From Thermoplasmata archaeon (lineage in GTDB: Archaea; Thermoplasmatota; Thermoplasmata; Thermoplasmatales; Aciduliprofundaceae), in the NCBI GenBank assembly GCA_021160945.1, contig JAGHBQ010000157.1:1-6982 (forward strand): a stretch of DNA of 6,982 nucleotides, in the 5' to 3' direction. Both the position numbers and the translations under genes were made by a program. The notes beneath the pieces were generated by a model. The model saw nothing but the letters and a program-made list of their open reading frames with translations. It was not told the DNA's origin and searched no databases. Shown one piece after another: positions 1-6,073 of this stretch (positions within the stretch are counted from its first letter, which is position 1; each line of letters begins with the position of its first letter).

Positions 1-359
1 CCTCCTCCACGATAATCATTGTATCCAAAATATCGAACTTTAGCTGTATAATCACTATGTCCCGGACGTGGTGTATATTTTATCTCCTCATAGTAGGAGG
101 ATTTCGCATCCCTGTTTTTCAGAATTATTGCTATGGGCGCTCCAGTAGTATGAGCTCTGAAGACTCCTGAAAGGATCTCAGGTATATCTTCCTCTCTTCT
201 TGAAGATGATGATTCTCTAACACCCCATCTTCTCTCAAGATCTTTTTTAATTTCTGTAGTATCCACTTCTATTCCTGGGGGCATACCCTCTATAAGACAA
301 CCAACCACCTTGCCATGACTCTCTCCAAATATGGAAAAGCGAAGAAGTTTACCCATCAT
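1..359 (-). CDS. aroC: Chorismate synthase, N-terminal part (runs off the window)
   Basis: Converts 5-enolpyruvylshikimate 3-phosphate (EPSP) to chorismate, the last common step, using reduced FMN; cytosolic. About 119 residues are visible. The N-terminus contains FGESHG (near residues 11-16), the first chorismate synthase signature with its catalytic His. It is followed by a GMPPGIEVD stretch, the RREED and LSGVFRAHTTGAPIA segments, RPGHSDYT, and a YNDYRGGG stretch where the window ends; the second signature (GRSSAR-type) lies outside. Two in-frame ATG codons adjoin, at 359 and 356. I chose 359 because GGAGG at 371-367 lies 7 bases upstream, the spacing used by most genes here; 356 is possible. 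The start overlaps the end of aroA by 11 bases, so it is the last visible gene of the operon. The family assignment is secure; completeness of the gene cannot be judged. Confidence 0.96.
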   Translation of the reverse strand, partial: MMGKLLRFSIFGESHGKVVGCLIEGMPPGIEVDTTEIKKDLERRWGVRESSSSRREEDIPEILSGVFRAHTTGAPIAIILKNRDAKSSYYEEIKYTPRPGHSDYTAKVRYFGYNDYRGG

Positions 360-1560
360 ATGCAATCCTCCTTAGATCTCTAAAAAATTGCGGATATGAT
401 TTCTCCACGCATCTTTCATCTATTATCATGCTTCTCCCTTTGGCCCCCAGTGCTGCAATGCTTAAAGCCATGGCAATCCGATGATCTCCATGGGAATCTA
501 AAATTCCTCCGCGGAGAGTTCTGCCACCCTGTATCAAAACCCCATCTCTTAACTCTTTAATATCTGCACCCATTTTTCTCAACTCAATAACCATACTTCT
601 TATTCTATCACTTTCTTTATATCTCAGATGAGGAGCCTTCAATACAGTTGTTCCCTTCGAGTAAGCACCAAGAACCGCAAGTATTGGAAATAGATCCGGA
701 TGATTTCTACAATCTACTTCCCCCCCATGCAGATCTCCTTGCATTACCTCTACAAAACTGGAATCTCTTCTAACCTTTGCACCAAACGCTTCAAGAATAT
801 CCACTATTCTTGCATCAGGTTGAAAATCTTTTCTTAGGTTCTCCACCTTCACCTTTCCAAATATTGCTCCTGCCACAAGGAAAAAAGATGCCGATGAGTA
901 ATCTCCAGGTATGTGAAATTTTCCGCCCTTCGGACCCTGCTCAACATATATTCTATCTTCCTCCATTGAAATCTTTGCACCAGCTTCTTTCAGAACTTCT
1001 ATGGTCATATCCACATATCCCTTAGAGACCAGATTTTTTACTTCAATAACAAATTCGCCCTTTTTTGCACCTAAGAATAGGAGTGAGGAAACAAACTGAG
1101 AAGATATAGAAGCATCAATCTTCACACTATTTTTCTTTATCTTCTTGCCCTTAACGATCACTGGGAGATATCCCTGAGAATCCCTTATCTCAACTCCGAG
1201 CTCTCTAAGTGCATTTAACAGCGCCCCCATAGGTCTTCTTCTCAGTTGTGAAGAGCCGTTTACGAGGGTAGTCCCCAAAATTTGAGATGAAACTCCAAGA
1301 GAGAATCTTGCAGTGGCCCCTGATTTGCGAGCACTAAGTCTTCCAGGATGAGGATTTACATATTCTATCCCACCCCATGATATCTTCGCCCCAAGCATCC
1401 GCAGAACCTCTATAGTTGCTTCTGTATCATCACATCTCAGGGGATTTTTAACCTCCATTTCCCCAGAGATAAATCCTGTGAAAAAGGCGCGATGTGTATA
1501 GCTTTTGGAAGGAGGGGCATCTATTCTACCCCTTACTTCTTCAACAGATTCAATGATCAT
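349..1560 (-). CDS. aroA: 3-phosphoshikimate 1-carboxyvinyltransferase (EPSP synthase)
   Basis: Transfers the enolpyruvyl group of PEP to shikimate 3-phosphate, giving EPSP, in the sixth step to chorismate; cytosolic. The 403 residues are slightly short for the family (about 420-430) but cover both inside-out alpha/beta domains. Visible motifs are PPSKSYTHRAF (16-26, with the substrate-binding Lys and Arg), SGATARF (80-86), NHPDLFPILAVLGAY (286-300, catalytic Asp at 289), RYKESDRI (313-320), SHGDHRIAMALS (356-367) and EKSYPQFF near the C-terminus. The PEP-binding loop is unusual: the usual GN(A/S)GT becomes RKSGAT, so Lys 79 and Ala 82 replace the common Asn and Thr. ATG at 1560 has GGAGG at 1572-1568, 7 bases upstream, and forms an ATGA overlap with the shikimate kinase stop, so translation is probably coupled. 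The aroC start lies in its last codons. Confidence 0.97.
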   Translation of the reverse strand: MIIESVEEVRGRIDAPPSKSYTHRAFFTGFISGEMEVKNPLRCDDTEATIEVLRMLGAKISWGGIEYVNPHPGRLSARKSGATARFSLGVSSQILGTTLVNGSSQLRRRPMGALLNALRELGVEIRDSQGYLPVIVKGKKIKKNSVKIDASISSQFVSSLLFLGAKKGEFVIEVKNLVSKGYVDMTIEVLKEAGAKISMEEDRIYVEQGPKGGKFHIPGDYSSASFFLVAGAIFGKVKVENLRKDFQPDARIVDILEAFGAKVRRDSSFVEVMQGDLHGGEVDCRNHPDLFPILAVLGAYSKGTTVLKAPHLRYKESDRIRSMVIELRKMGADIKELRDGVLIQGGRTLRGGILDSHGDHRIAMALSIAALGAKGRSMIIDERCVEKSYPQFFRDLRRIAYDG

Positions 1561-2375
1561 CCGAAGACCTCCGTTTTTATTATTTCACCCATTCCATTCC
1601 ATACATTCTGGATCATCTCTGGCTCTTCTGTTATGGCAAATAGAGCGGGACCTTTTCCGCATAATCCAACAGTGGCTCCAAGTGAATACGCCTCCAAAAT
1701 TGGCTCTATATCATATCCCAGAAGAGATGCATATGCCAGAGCATTCAGGAAGGATGCGTATCTCCATTCTCCGCGAAAAGCCATATGAAATATCCTTTCC
1801 ACAGAATCTTTTATTACACTGAAATCTATATGTCTTAGAGAGTATGTTTCCACTTTATGAGATGGAACAAGAAGAACCACTGGGAGAGAGGATATTCTCT
1901 CTCTTTTTAATAGAGACATCTTTCTGTTGTCAGTGAAGACCAGTCCTCCAAAATACGAGGCACAGGCATCGTCGTATGCTCCTGTTAGAGTAACTCTGGC
2001 CCTCTTTGCAGCTTCCACACCTATTTTCAAAATTTCTTCATCTCCCAAATGAATATCCAGAGCTTTTAATATTGCTACCGTGACAGCATTGGCTACTGCA
2101 GAACTGCTCTTTAGTCCCTTAGCAACTGGAATCTCTGAATCTATGTTTATTTTCACTCCAAAATTCATGCCTGTACGCTCTCTAATAACTTTCACAACTT
2201 CTTTTACAAGACTCACATCATGATAATCTTTTCCTCTGACTTTTATTTTTACATCTATATCCTCCTCTTTTATTTCTGCTTTCGCCTTAACTTTTAAATT
2301 TATCCCTAGAGCAGCACCCTTCCATGAGGCGAGAGCGTTAACCACCGTTACTGCGGAATGTGCCACAGCAATCAT
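1557..2375 (-). CDS. Archaeal (GHMP-superfamily) shikimate kinase
   Basis: Phosphorylates shikimate at the 3-hydroxyl with ATP. This is the archaeal enzyme, related to homoserine and mevalonate kinases and unrelated to bacterial AroK. The 272 residues show the GHMP ATP-binding loop PVAKGLKSSSAVANA (83-97), the archaeal shikimate kinase block TGAYDDACASYFGG (131-144) and the C-terminal GLCGKGPALF motif (237-246). The open frame extends upstream to 2435, but I chose ATG 2375. It gives the N-terminus typical of the family (MIAVAHSAVTVVNALASWKG), has GGAGG at 2387-2383 with a 7-base spacer, and makes a 4-base ATGA overlap with the aroE stop. The longer start would add 20 residues lying entirely within aroE. 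It sits between aroE (makes shikimate) and aroA (uses its product), in pathway order. Identification is firm. The bacterial name aroK is sometimes applied to this gene, but it is not homologous. Confidence 0.95.
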   Translation of the reverse strand: MIAVAHSAVTVVNALASWKGAALGINLKVKAKAEIKEEDIDVKIKVRGKDYHDVSLVKEVVKVIRERTGMNFGVKINIDSEIPVAKGLKSSSAVANAVTVAILKALDIHLGDEEILKIGVEAAKRARVTLTGAYDDACASYFGGLVFTDNRKMSLLKRERISSLPVVLLVPSHKVETYSLRHIDFSVIKDSVERIFHMAFRGEWRYASFLNALAYASLLGYDIEPILEAYSLGATVGLCGKGPALFAITEEPEMIQNVWNGMGEIIKTEVFG

Positions 2376-3175
2376 TTCAATGCCTCCATCGCTACTTTCC
2401 TCATAAATATCGGATCCCCCTCCATTCCTGTCCATATTCTGAAACTTTCAGCCGCCTGCTCCACAAGCATCCATAAACCATCCACCGTAATGCATCCCCT
2501 CTCTATAGAATCCTTCAAAAGCCTTGTTTGTAAGGGAGCATAGACAATATCCATAACCACCATATCTTCTCGTAAAAATTCCCCCGGAACAAGGCTTTCA
2601 TCACCCTTCATCCCCACAGGAGTGGCATTGATAAGTATATCCACTTCCTCAATCAAGTTTCTCAGATTTTCTCTGTTAAGAAGTCCACCTTTGACTCCTA
2701 TTTTTTCCACTTCCTTTATTCTGCTCTCTTTTCTATCCAGTACAGTTACCTCTGCTAATTTGGAGAGAGAATAAGCTATGGATTTTCCAGCCCCACCACC
2801 ACCGAGAATGAGTACCTTTTTCCCTATCAAATTTGTGAATCTTTTGAGAGCTTTGAGAGCACCTATACCATCGGTGTTGTATCCCACAAATCTTCCATCT
2901 TCATTTTTCACGGTGTTTACTACCCTGATTATCTCCGCATCTCCTCTCAACTCATCAAGATAGGAAATCACTTGCTCCTTGTAGGGCATGGTTATGTTAA
3001 TACCCTTAAAATCGAGTTCTTTCACTTTTTTCATTGCATTTCCTATACTATCAGAGGATATCTTTGTGTAAAATGCATCTATGCCATATCTTTTAAAAAG
3101 AGCGTTGTGTATCACTGGACTCAAAGAATTTTCCACATTTCTGCCAATGAGCCCGTACAATTTGCCACCACTCAT
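2372..3175 (-). CDS. aroE: Shikimate dehydrogenase
   Basis: Reduces 3-dehydroshikimate to shikimate, normally with NADPH; cytosolic. At 267 residues it is the usual length. The substrate domain has NSLSP (16-20), NITMPYKE (60-67, catalytic Lys 66), VVNTV (85-89) and YNTDGIG (99-105, catalytic Asp 102). The Rossmann part shows LGGGGAGKS (124-132) and INATPVGM (182-189), and the late helix has DGLWMLVEQAAESFRIWTG with the substrate-binding Gln 240. After the second strand the sequence reads LDRKESR, where NADP-dependent family members usually have N-R-T/S; the Arg that would hold the phosphate is kept. The frame is open to 3283, but the upstream 36 residues lie inside aroD and resemble nothing. 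ATG 3175 makes an ATGA overlap with the aroD stop and gives the family N-terminus. Its ribosome-binding site is the weakest of the operon (GAGGGTGG near 3190-3183), so coupling to aroD may matter most here. Confidence 0.96.
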   Translation of the reverse strand: MSGGKLYGLIGRNVENSLSPVIHNALFKRYGIDAFYTKISSDSIGNAMKKVKELDFKGINITMPYKEQVISYLDELRGDAEIIRVVNTVKNEDGRFVGYNTDGIGALKALKRFTNLIGKKVLILGGGGAGKSIAYSLSKLAEVTVLDRKESRIKEVEKIGVKGGLLNRENLRNLIEEVDILINATPVGMKGDESLVPGEFLREDMVVMDIVYAPLQTRLLKDSIERGCITVDGLWMLVEQAAESFRIWTGMEGDPIFMRKVAMEALK

Positions 3176-3807
3176 TTTTCCACCACCCTCAGCGCCATTA
3201 AAAATTCTTGTAAGGAAATCTGACCCGGAGCAATAGAATCTCCGAGAGGAACATAAGTAAACGGTGCCAGAAAATAGCTGCAAAGGCGAGAGAGCTTACC
3301 TCTGGATCCCATACAAAAGGCCACTGCGTTTTTATCCACCTCGTATATTCTCAGAAGCTTGACGTTATCCTCAAAATCTCTTGCCATAGTAACAATTTTT
3401 TTCACATCACCTTCCTTCATTTTATCCACGATTCTTCTTAAAATATCAAAAGAGGGAGTCTCCTGAAAATTGTGATAGGACAAAATTATTTCCGCATCTC
3501 TCTTCTTTGCCACTCTCATAACCTCTTCCTTTATGGATGAGCGGTGTTCTATGTCCACATATCTAGGCGATATCTCCAATATCCTCTCGAATATTTCTTT
3601 CCTCTTCCTTTCAGTGAGTTTTCGAAATCCTCCTTCTTCAATTCTTCTCACAGTCAAAATCAACCTATTTTTATGCTTTTCCAGAAGCTCAAAATTTTCT
3701 AAAGTGTGCATCGCATCAACCCTTATCTCATACAGCTCCATAGGATTTTTTTCAATTTTTTTCAAAGCCTCCACGGGATCTCCTGCCACCACTATACCTG
3801 CGAGCAT
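3172..3807 (-). CDS. aroD: 3-dehydroquinate dehydratase, type I
   Basis: Dehydrates 3-dehydroquinate to 3-dehydroshikimate through a Schiff base on a lysine. The 211-residue protein is a compact archaeal type I enzyme (bacterial ones are about 225-250). Active-site signatures in order: ELYEIRVD (24-31, Glu 27 and Arg 29), LTVRRIEEGG (51-60, Arg 54), YVDIE (83-87), IILSYHNF (107-114, catalytic His 112), VKKIVTMA (135-142, Schiff-base Lys 137), FCMGSRGKLSR (164-174, Arg 174) and APGQISL (193-199). All expected catalytic residues are present. ATG 3807 is preceded by GGAGG at 3819-3815 with a 7-base spacer and lies 16 bases inside the end of aroB; the stop overlaps the aroE start as ATGA. Its position between aroB and aroE matches pathway order. 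Confidence 0.97.
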   Translation of the reverse strand: MLAGIVVAGDPVEALKKIEKNPMELYEIRVDAMHTLENFELLEKHKNRLILTVRRIEEGGFRKLTERKRKEIFERILEISPRYVDIEHRSSIKEEVMRVAKKRDAEIILSYHNFQETPSFDILRRIVDKMKEGDVKKIVTMARDFEDNVKLLRIYEVDKNAVAFCMGSRGKLSRLCSYFLAPFTYVPLGDSIAPGQISLQEFLMALRVVEK

Positions 3808-4781
3808 AGCATATCCTCCAACGTTTCAAGAATAAGATTCTCTTGAACCTCTTCTATAATCACCCTTCCAATATCCATCGGAAGAACGAAAACCATTTTT
3901 CCATACCAGAATTTTTTATCATTTTTCATTGCACTCAGGATTTCTCTGGGTTTAAAAGAGAGGGAGAGGCTAATATCAAAAGCATCTAGCAGAGAGTTCA
4001 GAGGTGCTGGATCAAATCCATAAAGCTTGCGAGATAATATTCCAGCGAATCTTAGTCCCTGAGCCACTGCAATACCATGTTTTATTGTGTATCCCGATAA
4101 CTTTTCCAGGGCATGGGCAAAAGTATGCCCAAGATTCAGAATTCTTCTTTTTCCTTGCTCTCTCATGTCTTCTTTCACCACGCCAATTTTGTAATTCACA
4201 CACAACCTTATGACTTCCTCATCCACGTCCTTCTTTTTCCATAGCATTTCATAGATTTCTCTACTGAGAATTGCGTATTTCACCAGCTCACCATATCCAT
4301 TTTTCCATTCTTCTGGAGGCAATGTCTTTAAAAAATCTGGATCGATTAATATACGTTCGGGAGAATAGAATGTCCCTATTATATTCTTCCCCTCAAAGTT
4401 GATACCTGTTTTACCCCCAATGGCGGCATCTATCTGTGCAATAAGCGTGGTTGGCAGAAGAATAAGCGGTAGACCCCTCATGAAAGTGGACGCAACGAAT
4501 CCTGCAAGATCTGTTATCACTCCTCCACCAAAACCTATCACAAGGGATTTTCTTGTGAACTCTTCACTTATCATCTTTTTCCAGATATGTATGGCTGCTT
4601 CAATGCTCTTTGCTCTCTCACCCGGAGGGAGAATTATGTGAACTGCTTTCAGATCTCCAAGAGCCTCCATGTGCAATCTTGCCACATTACTATCAGTGAT
4701 CACTGCAACCTTGTATGGTCGCATTTCATCCACGATATCTCTGAGATTTGAAACTGTACCCCTTCCTATCTTGATATCCAT
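3792..4781 (-). CDS. aroB: 3-dehydroquinate synthase
   Basis: Cyclises DAHP to 3-dehydroquinate, using NAD and a divalent metal. The 329 residues are a little short for the family (about 350). The NAD-binding [16 protein letters not shown] (83-98) is followed by [20 protein letters not shown] (109-128) and [11 protein letters not shown] (131-141). Metal ligands are Glu 165 in GYGELVKY, His 219 in [12 protein letters not shown] and His 235 in KHGIAVA. NDKK (287-290) and the preceding basic residues complete the substrate site. The motif usually read as VV..DE.E here is [10 protein letters not shown], with Met for the common Glu. ATG 4781 lies 16 bases inside the end of the DAHP synthase gene, with GGAGG at 4796-4792 (10-base spacer, longer than for its neighbours). 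Finding aroB beside a DAHP synthase shows that this organism uses the classical entry to the pathway. Many methanogens instead make dehydroquinate from aspartate semialdehyde and a ketohexose phosphate. Confidence 0.97.
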
Positions 4782-5572
4782 CTTTTCATTTCCTCCATGA
4801 GTTCGTGAAACTCCTGGAAATTAAGGCTCTGCTTTCCGTCAGATAACGCCTTTTCTGGCTGTGGATGAACTTCAACCATTATGCCATCAGCCCCTACCGC
4901 AAGAGCCGCCCTGCTGAGTGGTATTATAAGATTCCTTTTTCCGGCAGCGTGTGAGGGATCCACAATCACCGGAAGATGGCTGAGTTCCTTTATTACCGGT
5001 ATTGCAGAGATATCAAGAGTGAACCTTGTTGCCCTCTCGAATGTTCTTATCCCTCTTTCGCATAGAATCACATTCTCGTTTCCTCCATATAGTATGTATT
5101 CCGCTGCATAAAGCCACTCCTCTATGGTATTTCCAAATCCTCTTTTCAGCAACACAGGTTTATCACTTTTTCCTACTTCTCTGAGCAGTTCATAGTTCTG
5201 GCAGTTGCGTGAGCCAACCTGTATTATGTCCACATACTTCTCCACCAGAGACACTTTCCTTGTGTCCATAACCTCGCTAACAACAAGCATATCATATTCA
5301 TCGGCAGCTTTTCTCATCCATCTTAAAGCTTCTTCTCCAAATCCCTGAAACGAGTACGGAGAAGTCCTTGGCTTATACGCTCCTCCTCTCAGCACTTTTA
5401 TACCCATCTCACTGAGAAATTTCGCTGTTCTCTCTATGTGTCCCGGGCTTTCAACAGAACATGGGCCGGCGATGATCACAAAATCTTCTCCAAATCTCAC
5501 ACCCTGAATATCAATTACACTTTTGCTCTTGTAATCTTTGGAAATCTTGAGCAAGACAATTTCTTGGGTCAT
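4766..5572 (-). CDS. 3-deoxy-7-phosphoheptulonate (DAHP) synthase, type I-beta
   Basis: Condenses phosphoenolpyruvate with erythrose 4-phosphate to DAHP, the first committed step. The 268 residues form one KDO8P-synthase-like TIM barrel. Motifs are IAGPCSVES (34-42, metal ligand Cys 38), [16 protein letters not shown] (62-77), [13 protein letters not shown] (118-130), [13 protein letters not shown] (141-153), [11 protein letters not shown] (169-179), [10 protein letters not shown] (204-213, His 208) and [18 protein letters not shown] (233-250, Glu 234 and Asp 245). No ferredoxin-like regulatory domain and no fused chorismate mutase is present, the two usual sites of feedback control in this subfamily. 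By analogy with the compact archaeal enzymes, it is likely not inhibited by aromatic amino acids, so control should lie in expression. ATG 5572 has the best ribosome-binding site of the operon (GGAGGTGAT from 5584, 7 bases after GGAGG) and an ATGA overlap with the regulator gene. It could be called aroF or aroG; I leave the symbol blank. Confidence 0.96.
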
Positions 5573-5925
5573 TCAATCACCTCCAGAAGCTCCAGAATAG
5601 CCATCCCCATATCAGTCAATCTCACAGGCTTTCTCTGATGCTTTTCACCATACTCAATCAATCCGAGTTCCTTGAGAATTTTGGCGTTCATCTTCAGTGT
5701 TGAAAGAGATTTTCTGTGTCTTCTCCCAATGTCCTCTAGAATTGCGTTAAGAGACTTTCCATTTTCATCACTATTGATTCTCTCTTTTACATATTCCATC
5801 TGCAGTTTTCTGAGAATTAAAATCTGCGTATTATTGAGGGCACGAAGGGTCAATGTACGTAGAATCCTTAAAAATTCTGCTCTCATCTCAGCAGATTCGA
5901 GAATATCCTGTATGCTTATGCCCAT
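5569..5925 (-). CDS. Small winged-helix protein, probable regulator of the aro operon
   Basis: I do not recognise a named family. The 118-residue protein reads as a winged helix-turn-helix. After an N-terminal amphipathic helix (about 13-30), [16 protein letters not shown] (31-46) fits helix 1 and [11 protein letters not shown] (57-67) helix 2. [20 protein letters not shown] (73-92) has the recognition-helix form ending in the GLI turn, and [20 protein letters not shown] (95-114) fits the wing and last helix (LT..G pattern). No ligand domain, membrane segment or Cys-metal site is visible. It is the first full-length gene after the leader peptide and directly precedes DAHP synthase (ATGA overlap), so a role in controlling the operon is likely but inferred. 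ATG 5925 overlaps the leader's Trp codon and has no GGAGG or GGTGAT at the usual distance, unlike its neighbours; a later start at Met 14 (5886) is possible. It seems made for coupled translation with the leader. Confidence 0.8.
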
Positions 5926-5999
5926 TGGCTGGGCATCACATCCATGGTACGCTTTCCATATTGGGAGGGCATCCCCTCCTTCATAAATTGGCTGGGCAT
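5916..5999 (-). CDS. Leader peptide with MPSQ-Phe, MPSQ-Tyr and MPSQ-Trp repeats
   Basis: A 27-codon ORF that reads as a regulatory leader. Residues 1-5 are MPSQF, 6-9 MKEG, 10-14 MPSQY, 15-21 GKRTMDV, 22-26 MPSQW and 27 Ala, then TAA at 5918-5916. One tetrapeptide is thus repeated three times in frame and followed once each by Phe (TTT), Tyr (TAT) and Trp (TGG), the three products of the pathway encoded downstream. Copies 1 and 3 are ATGCCCAGCCAA; copy 2 is ATGCCCTCCCAA, where both base changes leave Ser unchanged, evidence that the peptide is what is conserved. The start at 5999 follows a full GGTGAT ribosome-binding site (6009-6004) just downstream of a good promoter. In-frame ATG 6005 lies within that site and is less likely; an in-frame TAG at 6011-6009 closes the frame upstream. 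The end overlaps the winged-helix gene by 10 bases. That it senses charged tRNA or the amino acids is inference. Confidence 0.85.
   Translation of the reverse strand: MPSQFMKEGMPSQYGKRTMDVMPSQWA
5918..5936 (-). promoter_or_regulatory. Hairpin 2 over the Trp unit and regulator start codon
   Basis: ATGCCC (5936-5931), loop AGCCAAT (5930-5924), GGGCAT (5923-5918): a 6-bp inverted repeat covering the third MPSQ unit, most of the Trp codon and the last base of the winged-helix start codon (5925-5923). Folding would limit access to that start; a ribosome finishing the leader would melt it. The GGGCAT arm can in principle pair with ATGCCC of any of the three repeat copies, giving mutually exclusive structures. 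Confidence 0.5.
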
Positions 6000-6002
6000 C
6001 AC
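5924..6002 (-). repeat. Three direct repeats (GTGATGCCCAGCCAAT) inside the leader ORF
   Basis: The 16-base unit GTGATGCCCAGCCAAT occurs exactly at 6002-5987 and 5939-5924. A third copy at 5975-5960 reads GGGATGCCCTCCCAAT (three mismatches). Starting points are 27 and 36 bases apart, both multiples of three, so each copy is read in the same frame as (x)MPSQ plus the first base of an aromatic codon. The repeats could also be binding sites for the neighbouring winged-helix protein. The two exact copies are 63 bp apart, about six helical turns, but the middle copy is not in phase with them. Confidence 0.9.
5964..5979 (-). promoter_or_regulatory. Hairpin 1 over the second MPSQ unit
   Basis: GGAGGG (5979-5974), loop GATG (5973-5970), CCCTCC (5969-5964): a perfect 6-bp, GC-rich stem with a four-base loop in the leader RNA. 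It spans the MPSQ unit that precedes the Tyr codon. The AGC-to-TCC serine change peculiar to this copy is what allows the stem to form. The stem also hides an internal GGAGG. A ribosome paused on the Phe codon (5987-5985) would be expected to cover its 5' arm. Confidence 0.6.
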
Positions 6003-6003
6003 C

Positions 6004-6009
6004 ATCACC
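6004..6009 (-). promoter_or_regulatory. Ribosome-binding site of the leader peptide (GGTGAT)
   Basis: GGTGAT is an exact match to the 3' half of the archaeal Shine-Dalgarno consensus AGGAGGTGAT. Aligned on the shared GG, the distance to ATG 5999 is 8 bases, against 7 for most genes of the operon. This decides for the start at 5999 over the ATG at 6005, which is part of the site itself, and it argues that the short ORF is truly translated. Confidence 0.75.
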
Positions 6010-6032
6010 TAAGCTGGGTAGAGGGGTTGAAT

Positions 6033-6048
6033 TATTTAAAGGTTTAGC
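6033..6048 (-). promoter_or_regulatory. Archaeal promoter (BRE plus TATA box) of the aro operon
   Basis: On the minus strand TTTAAATA (6040-6033) matches the archaeal TATA box. GCTAAA (6048-6043) just upstream fits the purine-rich TFB recognition element. Archaeal initiation usually falls about 22-27 bases downstream of the TATA centre, so transcription should start near 6015-6010, leaving only 10-16 untranslated bases before the leader ATG. A second, weaker TATA-like stretch (TTTATA, 6055-6050) would start transcription some 15 bases earlier. The promoter separates the tyrA transcript from the aro operon. No terminator-like hairpin is visible after tyrA, so read-through from tyrA is possible. 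Confidence 0.7.
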
Positions 6049-6073
6049 CTATAAATAATGGCCATCTCTCAAC

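Follow-up and report, generated by a model that had tools for sequence, protein, structure and literature searches.

A stretch of 6,982 nucleotides from a Thermoplasmata archaeon (GenBank assembly GCA_021160945.1, contig JAGHBQ010000157.1), referred to here as the window, carries on its reverse strand a short leader open reading frame (ORF) at the head of an operon for aromatic amino acid biosynthesis, and this leader is proposed to act as an amino-acid starvation switch with a probability of roughly three in four. The leader contains one codon each for Phe, Tyr and Trp in a repeated sequence module, and a ribosome slipping by −1 at one of these codons would produce the downstream helix-turn-helix (HTH) regulator, a relative of Tar (TK0271) of Thermococcus kodakarensis, as an activator of the aromatic operon. 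The proposal draws on the anatomy of the modules, their fixed phase, the open regulator frame, the lack of start codons in many relatives and the agreement between module codon and downstream gene; the slip itself, its dependence on starvation and the activation of the operon are proposed on this basis.

The initial annotation had described a 27-codon ORF with three in-frame copies of MPSQ followed by F, Y and W in turn, and translation of positions 5999-5916 of the reverse strand confirmed this peptide, which ends at a TAA codon (5918-5916). The promoter and ribosome-binding site named there were also located, the latter resembling the T. kodakarensis consensus GGDGRD as given in excerpts of PMC4247193, and an alternative in-frame leader ATG at 6005 is possible. 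The placement of the leader ahead of an aromatic operon was likewise borne out, with the genes behind the HTH gene running in the order DAHP synthase, aroB, aroD, aroE, archaeal shikimate kinase and aroA (Table 1). The sequence ATGCCCWSCCAAT occurs three times in the 1.05-Mb assembly, every copy lying inside this leader. Among 200,000 random stretches of window composition, none encoded QF, then QY, then QW within 28 codons, and 6 of 13,796 real stretches of the window contained QF, QY and QW, just as many as the leader has in-frame offsets. The annotation overlooked that the third module and the beginning of the HTH gene overlap and that this gene is read in the −1 frame relative to the leader, a frame open upstream to 6048, after the stop at 6051-6049; the CAA-TGG of the third module also creates the first ATG of the regulator frame (5925-5923). 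The annotation had left the relay to the operon general; most likely it consists in a −1 frameshift that leads into the activator gene, a route that the annotation had not seen.

Transcription would start shortly upstream of the leader, judging from the distance to the TATA box, and ribosomes would initiate at the ATG at 5999. When all three aminoacyl-tRNAs are plentiful, the ribosome would reach the TAA codon and release the 27-residue peptide. Shortage of one aminoacyl-tRNA would make the ribosome pause, its P site occupied by CAA and its A site by the hungry codon (TTT, TAT or TGG). The GTGAT upstream of CAA is complementary to the archaeal anti-Shine-Dalgarno sequence. This Shine-Dalgarno (SD)-like element would favour a −1 slip into the regulator frame, as would the C before CAA, since tRNA-Gln could re-pair at two of three positions on CCA. 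Because the modules share one phase, a slip at any of them would enter the same open frame, and the three modules would form a logical OR gate through which shortage of any of the three amino acids leads to the same activator. Activation of the aromatic operon by the regulator so made would follow. The distance from the end of GTGAT is 7 nt to CAA and 10 nt to the hungry codon; excerpts of a 2016 review (PMC5009743) give SD distances of 9-14 nt for −1 shifts and 3 nt for +1 shifts, and the agreement with this range depends on the counting point.

The evidence from relatives comes from a table of 71 loci of the downstream HTH gene (Tar/TK0271 relatives) in five archaeal lineages, assembled from 15 genome-record loci (DHVE2 and Thermoplasmata metagenome-assembled genomes [MAGs], Thermococcus, a Thermoproteota MAG, Baldrarchaeum and Micrarchaeota) and from whole-genome searches. 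Micrarchaeota are represented by the stronger of the listed matches (about 46 bits and above), 48 loci including those found earlier. Duplicate copies of one locus were omitted, as were three further loci that are broken (L067), fragmentary (L068) or at a contig edge (L103), and distant winged-helix-turn-helix matches. The first two of these, though outside the table, still show a Y module. No module was present in the 11 distant matches that were viewed (L011, L012, L043, L046, L105, L106, L107, L109, L110, L111 and L142), which form a small negative control, other weak matches not having been viewed. The module search fixed CAA and demanded an SD-like element, so that neither counts as a result, and permitted C or T as the base preceding CAA.

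The comparison of the region upstream of the regulator in relatives, which the annotation had suggested, placed modules in one fixed frame in 65 of the 71 loci, with 97 modules recognised automatically. The automatic search found none in L092, L093, L095, L097, L098 and L101; by eye, five of these six show a variant (QH, QW or RH) and L093 shows none. A further 19 loci were read by eye only and stand outside the 97 modules; all have a module of Q and a following amino acid in the leader frame, several of them looser in spacing. The codon after CAA specifies Y in 36 modules, W in 29, H in 13, F in 12, P in two and S, T and G in one each, with two strays. GTGATG lies exactly 6 nt before CAA in 77 of the 97 modules and 5 nt before it in one, the other 19 having no exact GTGATG, and the base preceding CAA is C in 94. 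Codon choice within the modules is strict (TAT 36/36, TTT 12/12, CAC 13/13), unlike in the coding regions of the same loci, which use both Tyr, both Phe and both His codons. In some modules (L007, L042) the ATG is out of frame, yet the SD-like bases are retained. The first leader ATG lies at a median of 33 nt from the end of the TATA box (standard deviation 7.5; 48 loci with a TATA match of at least 7/8), and an SD-like site precedes it in the loci that were read.

A leader is present before every regulator homologue found in genomes of the window's genus (five matches including the window), with modules for F, Y and W in L005, Y and W in L006, and Y, Y and W in L007. A paralogue in this genus (L008/L016) has its modules in the order F, W, Y and a Tar domain fused to an extra C-terminal part. 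Thermococcaceae sets vary among FWY, WY, WWY, W only and Y only, and Micrarchaeota mostly carry single modules, with W, H, F, T, G, P and S. Within the 29-genome phylum of the Thermoproteota MAG, L024 has F and Y modules and six other close homologues that were viewed have Y; the weak seventh (L142) has none.

The phase of the modules is nearly invariant. Relative to the regulator, 87 occurrences of CCAA with an SD-like element within 14 nt fall in the +1 frame and two in each of the other frames (65 loci); the regulator frame is always −1 relative to the leader. From the first module into the conserved domain (1747 codons over the same loci), the regulator frame contains two stop codons, the third frame 122 and the leader frame 166, its own ends included. 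One of the two regulator-frame stops precedes the true modules of L056, so that L007 is the only real exception. Between the upstream stop and the conserved domain, 15 of the 65 loci contain no ATG, GTG or TTG in the regulator frame; they belong to Thermococcus, Micrarchaeota and the 29-genome phylum (for example L063, L030 and L024). Synthesis of such start-less regulators calls for a −1 shift out of the leader or else for initiation at unusual codons. In L024 the open frame spans 331 codons, passing through the regulator to a fused half that resembles transketolase, and the earliest possible start in it lies near codon 95. A single long open frame extends past the Tar domain in L024, L027, L135, L136, L138 and L139, and in the first two of these it enters an apparent N-terminal half of transketolase, an enzyme linked to erythrose 4-phosphate.

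The module codon was further compared with the gene that follows the regulator. Genes after the regulator were listed in the 48 Micrarchaeota loci; the first recognised gene shares the regulator's strand and lies no more than about 410 nt away, with a small ORF lacking a Pfam match in between in L078 and L079. The codon was read before the gene for 27 Micrarchaeota loci and for L045, L030, L042 and L028; for 17 others both appeared in one output. In all 17 loci whose first recognised gene is specific for an amino acid, the module codon names that amino acid: hisS (five loci) and hisG (two) follow H modules, trpB or trpB2 (four) W, thrS (two) T, proB (one) and proS (one) P, serS (one) S and glyS (one) G. 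The proB match, at 111 bits, is under its cut-off of 186, and the thrS of L079 is cut by the end of the stretch and scores below its cut-off. The permutation probability of the full match is 1.4e-9, a value that overstates independence as some loci are close relatives. The other 31 Micrarchaeota loci have no amino-acid-specific first gene (29 scanned); the genes there include GNAT, M20 peptidase, HAD hydrolase, nucleoside hydrolase, SDR, methyltransferase and others, many being without a match. Among these 31, L151 has the same letters as L150 and L099 stops at a contig edge. Non-aromatic residues at the module sites of relatives, which the annotation had listed as speaking against its idea, do occur (H, T, P, G or S), but often before genes for exactly those amino acids, and are hence informative. 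Its suggestion that the ribosome samples charged tRNA-Phe, -Tyr and -Trp is, on these comparisons, strongly supported, because the codon is exchangeable and matches the pathway in relatives.

H modules also precede GNAT-like acetyltransferase genes in L030 (by eye) and in L090, L096, L097, L101, L154 and L158 (Pfam, some matches weak), and the H codon hints at a histidine link of this acetyltransferase. The third gene behind the H module of L030 resembles a leucyl-tRNA synthetase when read by eye.

A second comparison used 28 Thermococcaceae genomes, namely the 26 above the NF053753 cut-off together with G452 and G508, eight genomes with weaker matches being left out; module presence was coded by hand, and the p-values are optimistic since the genomes are interrelated. 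TrpA is present in 13 of the 16 genomes with a W module vs 1 of the 12 without (p 3.4e-4). TyrA, taken as a PF02153 match on the strand of Tar and within 20 kb of it, is found in 18 of the 23 genomes with a Y module vs 0 of the 5 with W only (p 2.6e-3); this rule was set after viewing the matches, and 3 of the 18 counts (G414, G449 and G498) are below the Pfam cut-off. Prephenate dehydratase (PF00800) is found in 3 of the 6 genomes with an F module vs 0 of the 22 without (p 6e-3). The sole W-less genome with TrpA, G509, has a broken-looking TrpA that adjoins a broken second Tar (L161) with W and Y modules. Modules are still visible in both L161 and L067, the two broken Tar copies. In three TrpA-less Thermococcaceae with a W-only Tar (L048, L057 and L059), a gene for a Bmp/PnrA-like substrate-binding lipoprotein follows Tar (Pfam on L048 only), and this lipoprotein is perhaps a candidate for tryptophan uptake. 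A second Thermococcus Tar with one W module (L160) stands before a ferredoxin-like gene and an aldehyde ferredoxin oxidoreductase gene.

Taken beyond the window, the GTGATG-N6-CAA cassette is probably a general, re-programmable starvation sensor of archaea, in which the A-site codon names an amino acid and the −1 product activates its synthesis or its tRNA charging. It would serve eight or more amino acids (F, Y, W, H, T, P, G and S) in five lineages, cassettes in series forming OR gates, and would be the first natural use of hungry-codon frameshifting.

A number of observations weigh against the frameshift switch. The window regulator frame holds its own ATG (5925-5923), which could be used directly, as could that of every W-type leader, where CAA-TGG inevitably creates it; at least one ATG, GTG or TTG occurs in the regulator frame of 50 of the 65 loci. 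In L007 (the same as L026, from the window's genus), the regulator frame is interrupted by a TAG that lies after the first two modules and before the third, which leaves the Trp module as the sole one that could lead into the regulator. Behind the Tar gene of this locus no aro genes are evident. Selection on the start-less segment is not decisive, with a pN/pS (nonsynonymous to synonymous ratio) of 0.47 in the regulator frame and 0.50 and 0.71 in the others, calculated from six Y-type Thermococcus loci of nine extracted after L021, L022 and L065 were dropped for their other length. A 3' stimulatory structure is not general (mean z −1.0 vs composition-preserving shuffles, 14 of 59 below −2). 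Re-pairing of tRNA-Gln on CCA is imperfect, and a slow A site is stated in excerpts of the frameshifting review to matter more for +1 than for −1 shifts (PMC5009743). The link to the pathway is also incomplete, as 3 of the 16 W genomes lack TrpA, no TyrA was detected in 5 of the 23 Y genomes and just 3 of the 6 F genomes have the PF00800 dehydratase. With the PF02153 cut-off alone applied genome-wide, three of the five W-only genomes (G427, G429 and G431) also score, although these matches are of another type, involving another part of the profile and lying far from Tar or on the opposite strand. Finally, erythrose 4-phosphate released the T. kodakarensis Tar from DNA in vitro (PMC6737238, in part); sensing by the Tar system may therefore be double, by the leader and by erythrose 4-phosphate.

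The strongest competitor, itself unlikely, dispenses with frameshifting and holds that leader translation controls whether the regulator is initiated at a start codon of its own, stalling of the ribosome altering RNA structure or coupling so that a second ribosome can start. Such translational attenuation would suit the window, where the ATG at 5925 overlaps the Trp codon and where the leader RNA folds better than shuffles (z −2.8). There is also room for attenuation in a weak terminator-like hairpin inside the regulator gene (5895-5876; one found vs 0.6 expected), so that the annotation's remark that no terminator is visible was not quite right. Cognate codons in a short leader, as in attenuators, are found in the window leader and its relatives. 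A regulator's own start codon is, however, what the 15 start-less loci lack, and attenuation would work without a fixed −1 phase and without a −1 frame that stays open across the modules. The segment after the last module is, moreover, unstructured in the same-genus loci L005-L007 (z 1.45, 1.05 and 0.05). As for attenuation of transcription, no conserved terminator or antiterminator was found before the structural gene, the one weak site being that inside the window regulator gene.

It is quite improbable that translation of the regulator begins at the module from a non-canonical codon such as AUA, AUU or ACA, GTGAT being a normal SD sequence and the leader reading a by-product. GTGAT does stand upstream of an A-T-N that opens the regulator frame at F, Y and W modules, but at H, T, G and P modules the corresponding codon is ACA, AAC, AGG or ACC, on which ground this explanation was rejected. 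It also leaves aside the agreement of codon and gene in 17 of 17 cases and the fairly fixed distance of the leader ATG from the TATA box.

The annotation had offered as a second option that the nascent MPSQ peptide senses free aromatic amino acids, and a sensor of this type, arresting the ribosome from within the exit tunnel, is very improbable. M-[PS]-x-Q is common in leaders, but the peptide is not conserved: the residues flanking Q vary, that after M may be P, S, A, Q, H, R, N, K or D, x is free, and M is missing in some modules (the second of L007 and of L008). What is mostly kept is GTGATG, the nucleotide spacing and CCAA. A single peptide frame would in addition need to sense eight amino acids, and the nascent-peptide sensor was rejected as the principal explanation. 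Least probable of all, and also rejected, is that the repeats are DNA operators of the regulator itself, since three near-identical repeats do adjoin the gene of a DNA-binding protein but operators require neither a reading frame nor a cognate codon, and a different palindrome, TGGACA-N8-TGTCCA, which is the known Tar-bound site (PMC6737238, in part), scores 10-12/12 upstream of the promoter in 32 of 70 loci vs 0.3% of shuffles.

The frameshift switch bears on results obtained with T. kodakarensis. There, removing any one of Trp, Tyr and Phe raises all three operons, and Tar is not released from DNA by 10 mM Trp, Tyr and Phe; the authors called it interesting, and left open, how the absence of any single aromatic amino acid is recognised (excerpts of PMC6737238). 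The main text of that paper mentions neither a leader nor a frameshift, and the leader described here would be the missing sensor. L051, which is probably the T. kodakarensis Tar gene, carries F, W and Y modules. Tar, the aromatic amino acid activator of T. kodakarensis, is a homologous HTH protein that heads an aro operon, and the same operator consensus is found upstream of relatives. If correct, the switch would explain how T. kodakarensis detects any one missing aromatic amino acid, and as this organism is genetically tractable, the idea is open to direct testing.

In the bacterial attenuator leaders trpL, pheL and hisL, codons for the regulated amino acid lie in a short leader and the ribosome is the sensor. 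The archaeal leaders differ in having one codon per module rather than runs, no conserved terminator that could be seen and several amino acids combined, and their output would be a trans-acting activator made by frameshifting. The prfB gene of release factor 2 (RF2) is alike in that a slow A site and an upstream SD-like element make the ribosome leave a short ORF so that the full protein is produced (PMC5009743, in part). It differs in its +1 shift at a stop codon, an SD distance of 3 nt and its sensing of a release factor, whereas here the shift would be −1, at exchangeable sense codons, and would report on aminoacyl-tRNAs. Exchangeable sense codons, a −1 shift and a transcription activator are combined in neither attenuator leaders nor the RF2 frameshift. 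The only archaeal −1 programmed frameshift reported in excerpts of one review is that of fucA1 in Saccharolobus solfataricus, which concerns an enzyme gene and uses a heptameric slippery sequence, the reason for the recoding not being known to that review (PMC8211752). TrpY of Methanothermobacter, also an archaeal regulator of aromatic amino acid genes, is a Trp-responsive repressor (PMC6737238, in part), whereas sensing here would sit in the leader. The excerpted 2016 review considered that hungry-codon frameshifting might yield starvation-specific trans-frame proteins, of which no examples were known (PMC5009743). No account of this leader, of a Tar frameshift or of a natural hungry-codon sensor was found in search listings and excerpts of the open-access literature, outside which most subscription journals and preprints lie. 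Work by Gallant and others reportedly treated hungry-codon frameshifting as a translational effect of starvation; evolution appears to have turned it into a sensor with a swappable codon that names the amino acid. If so, a sensing principle would be added beside T-boxes and attenuators in a domain of life where such control is little known, and the function of genes of uncultured Micrarchaeota would be predictable from one codon.

Table 1. Features of the window around the leader and the aromatic amino acid operon
Feature	Position	Strand	Remarks
Candidate Tar operator TGGCCATTATTTATAGGCTA	6045..6064	(-)	weak; 8/12 consensus bases, degenerate palindrome
TATA box TTTAAATA	6033..6040	(-)	33 nt upstream of leader ATG
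Ribosome-binding site AGGTGAT of leader	6004..6010	(-)	4 nt ahead of ATG 5999
Leader ORF	5916..5999	(-)	27 codons + TAA; homologous leaders in L005, L006, L007, L008
Module 1 (Phe) GTGATG CCCAGC CAA TTT	5985..6002	(-)	predicted −1 slip at C-CAA when TTT is hungry
Module 2 (Tyr) GGGATG CCCTCC CAA TAT	5958..5975	(-)	
Module 3 (Trp) GTGATG CCCAGC CAA TGG	5922..5939	(-)	
HTH regulator, relative of the Tar/TK0271 family	5569..5925	(-)	NF053753 98.4 bits
DAHP synthase	4766..5572	(-)	NF006421 436 bits, TIGR01361 416 bits; first enzyme gene of the likely regulated operon
Remaining operon: aroB, aroD, aroE, archaeal shikimate kinase, aroA	352..4781	(-)	
Prephenate-dehydrogenase-like gene	6838-6074	(-)	upstream of leader

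On its sequence, the window regulator is a relative of the Tar/TK0271 family at the head of an aro operon, its score against the NCBIfam model of TK0271 (NF053753) being under the curated cut-off of 130; the same-genus paralogue L009 (the same as L008) reaches 130.8 bits. A search for homologous proteins with the window regulator returned a single protein, 97% identical, and 6 of the 389 genomes of the window's phylum match NF053753, 4 of them weakly (21-23 bits). The operator candidates of the window and of L005 agree with only 8 of the 12 consensus bases, a value that about 22% of shuffles reach or exceed, and the window site was not returned by a search allowing up to three mismatches to the consensus. 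Perfect TGGACA-N8-TGTCCA palindromes lie upstream of the Tar genes of L137 and L028, outside Thermococcales, and the operator specificity of Tar seems to be conserved between phyla.
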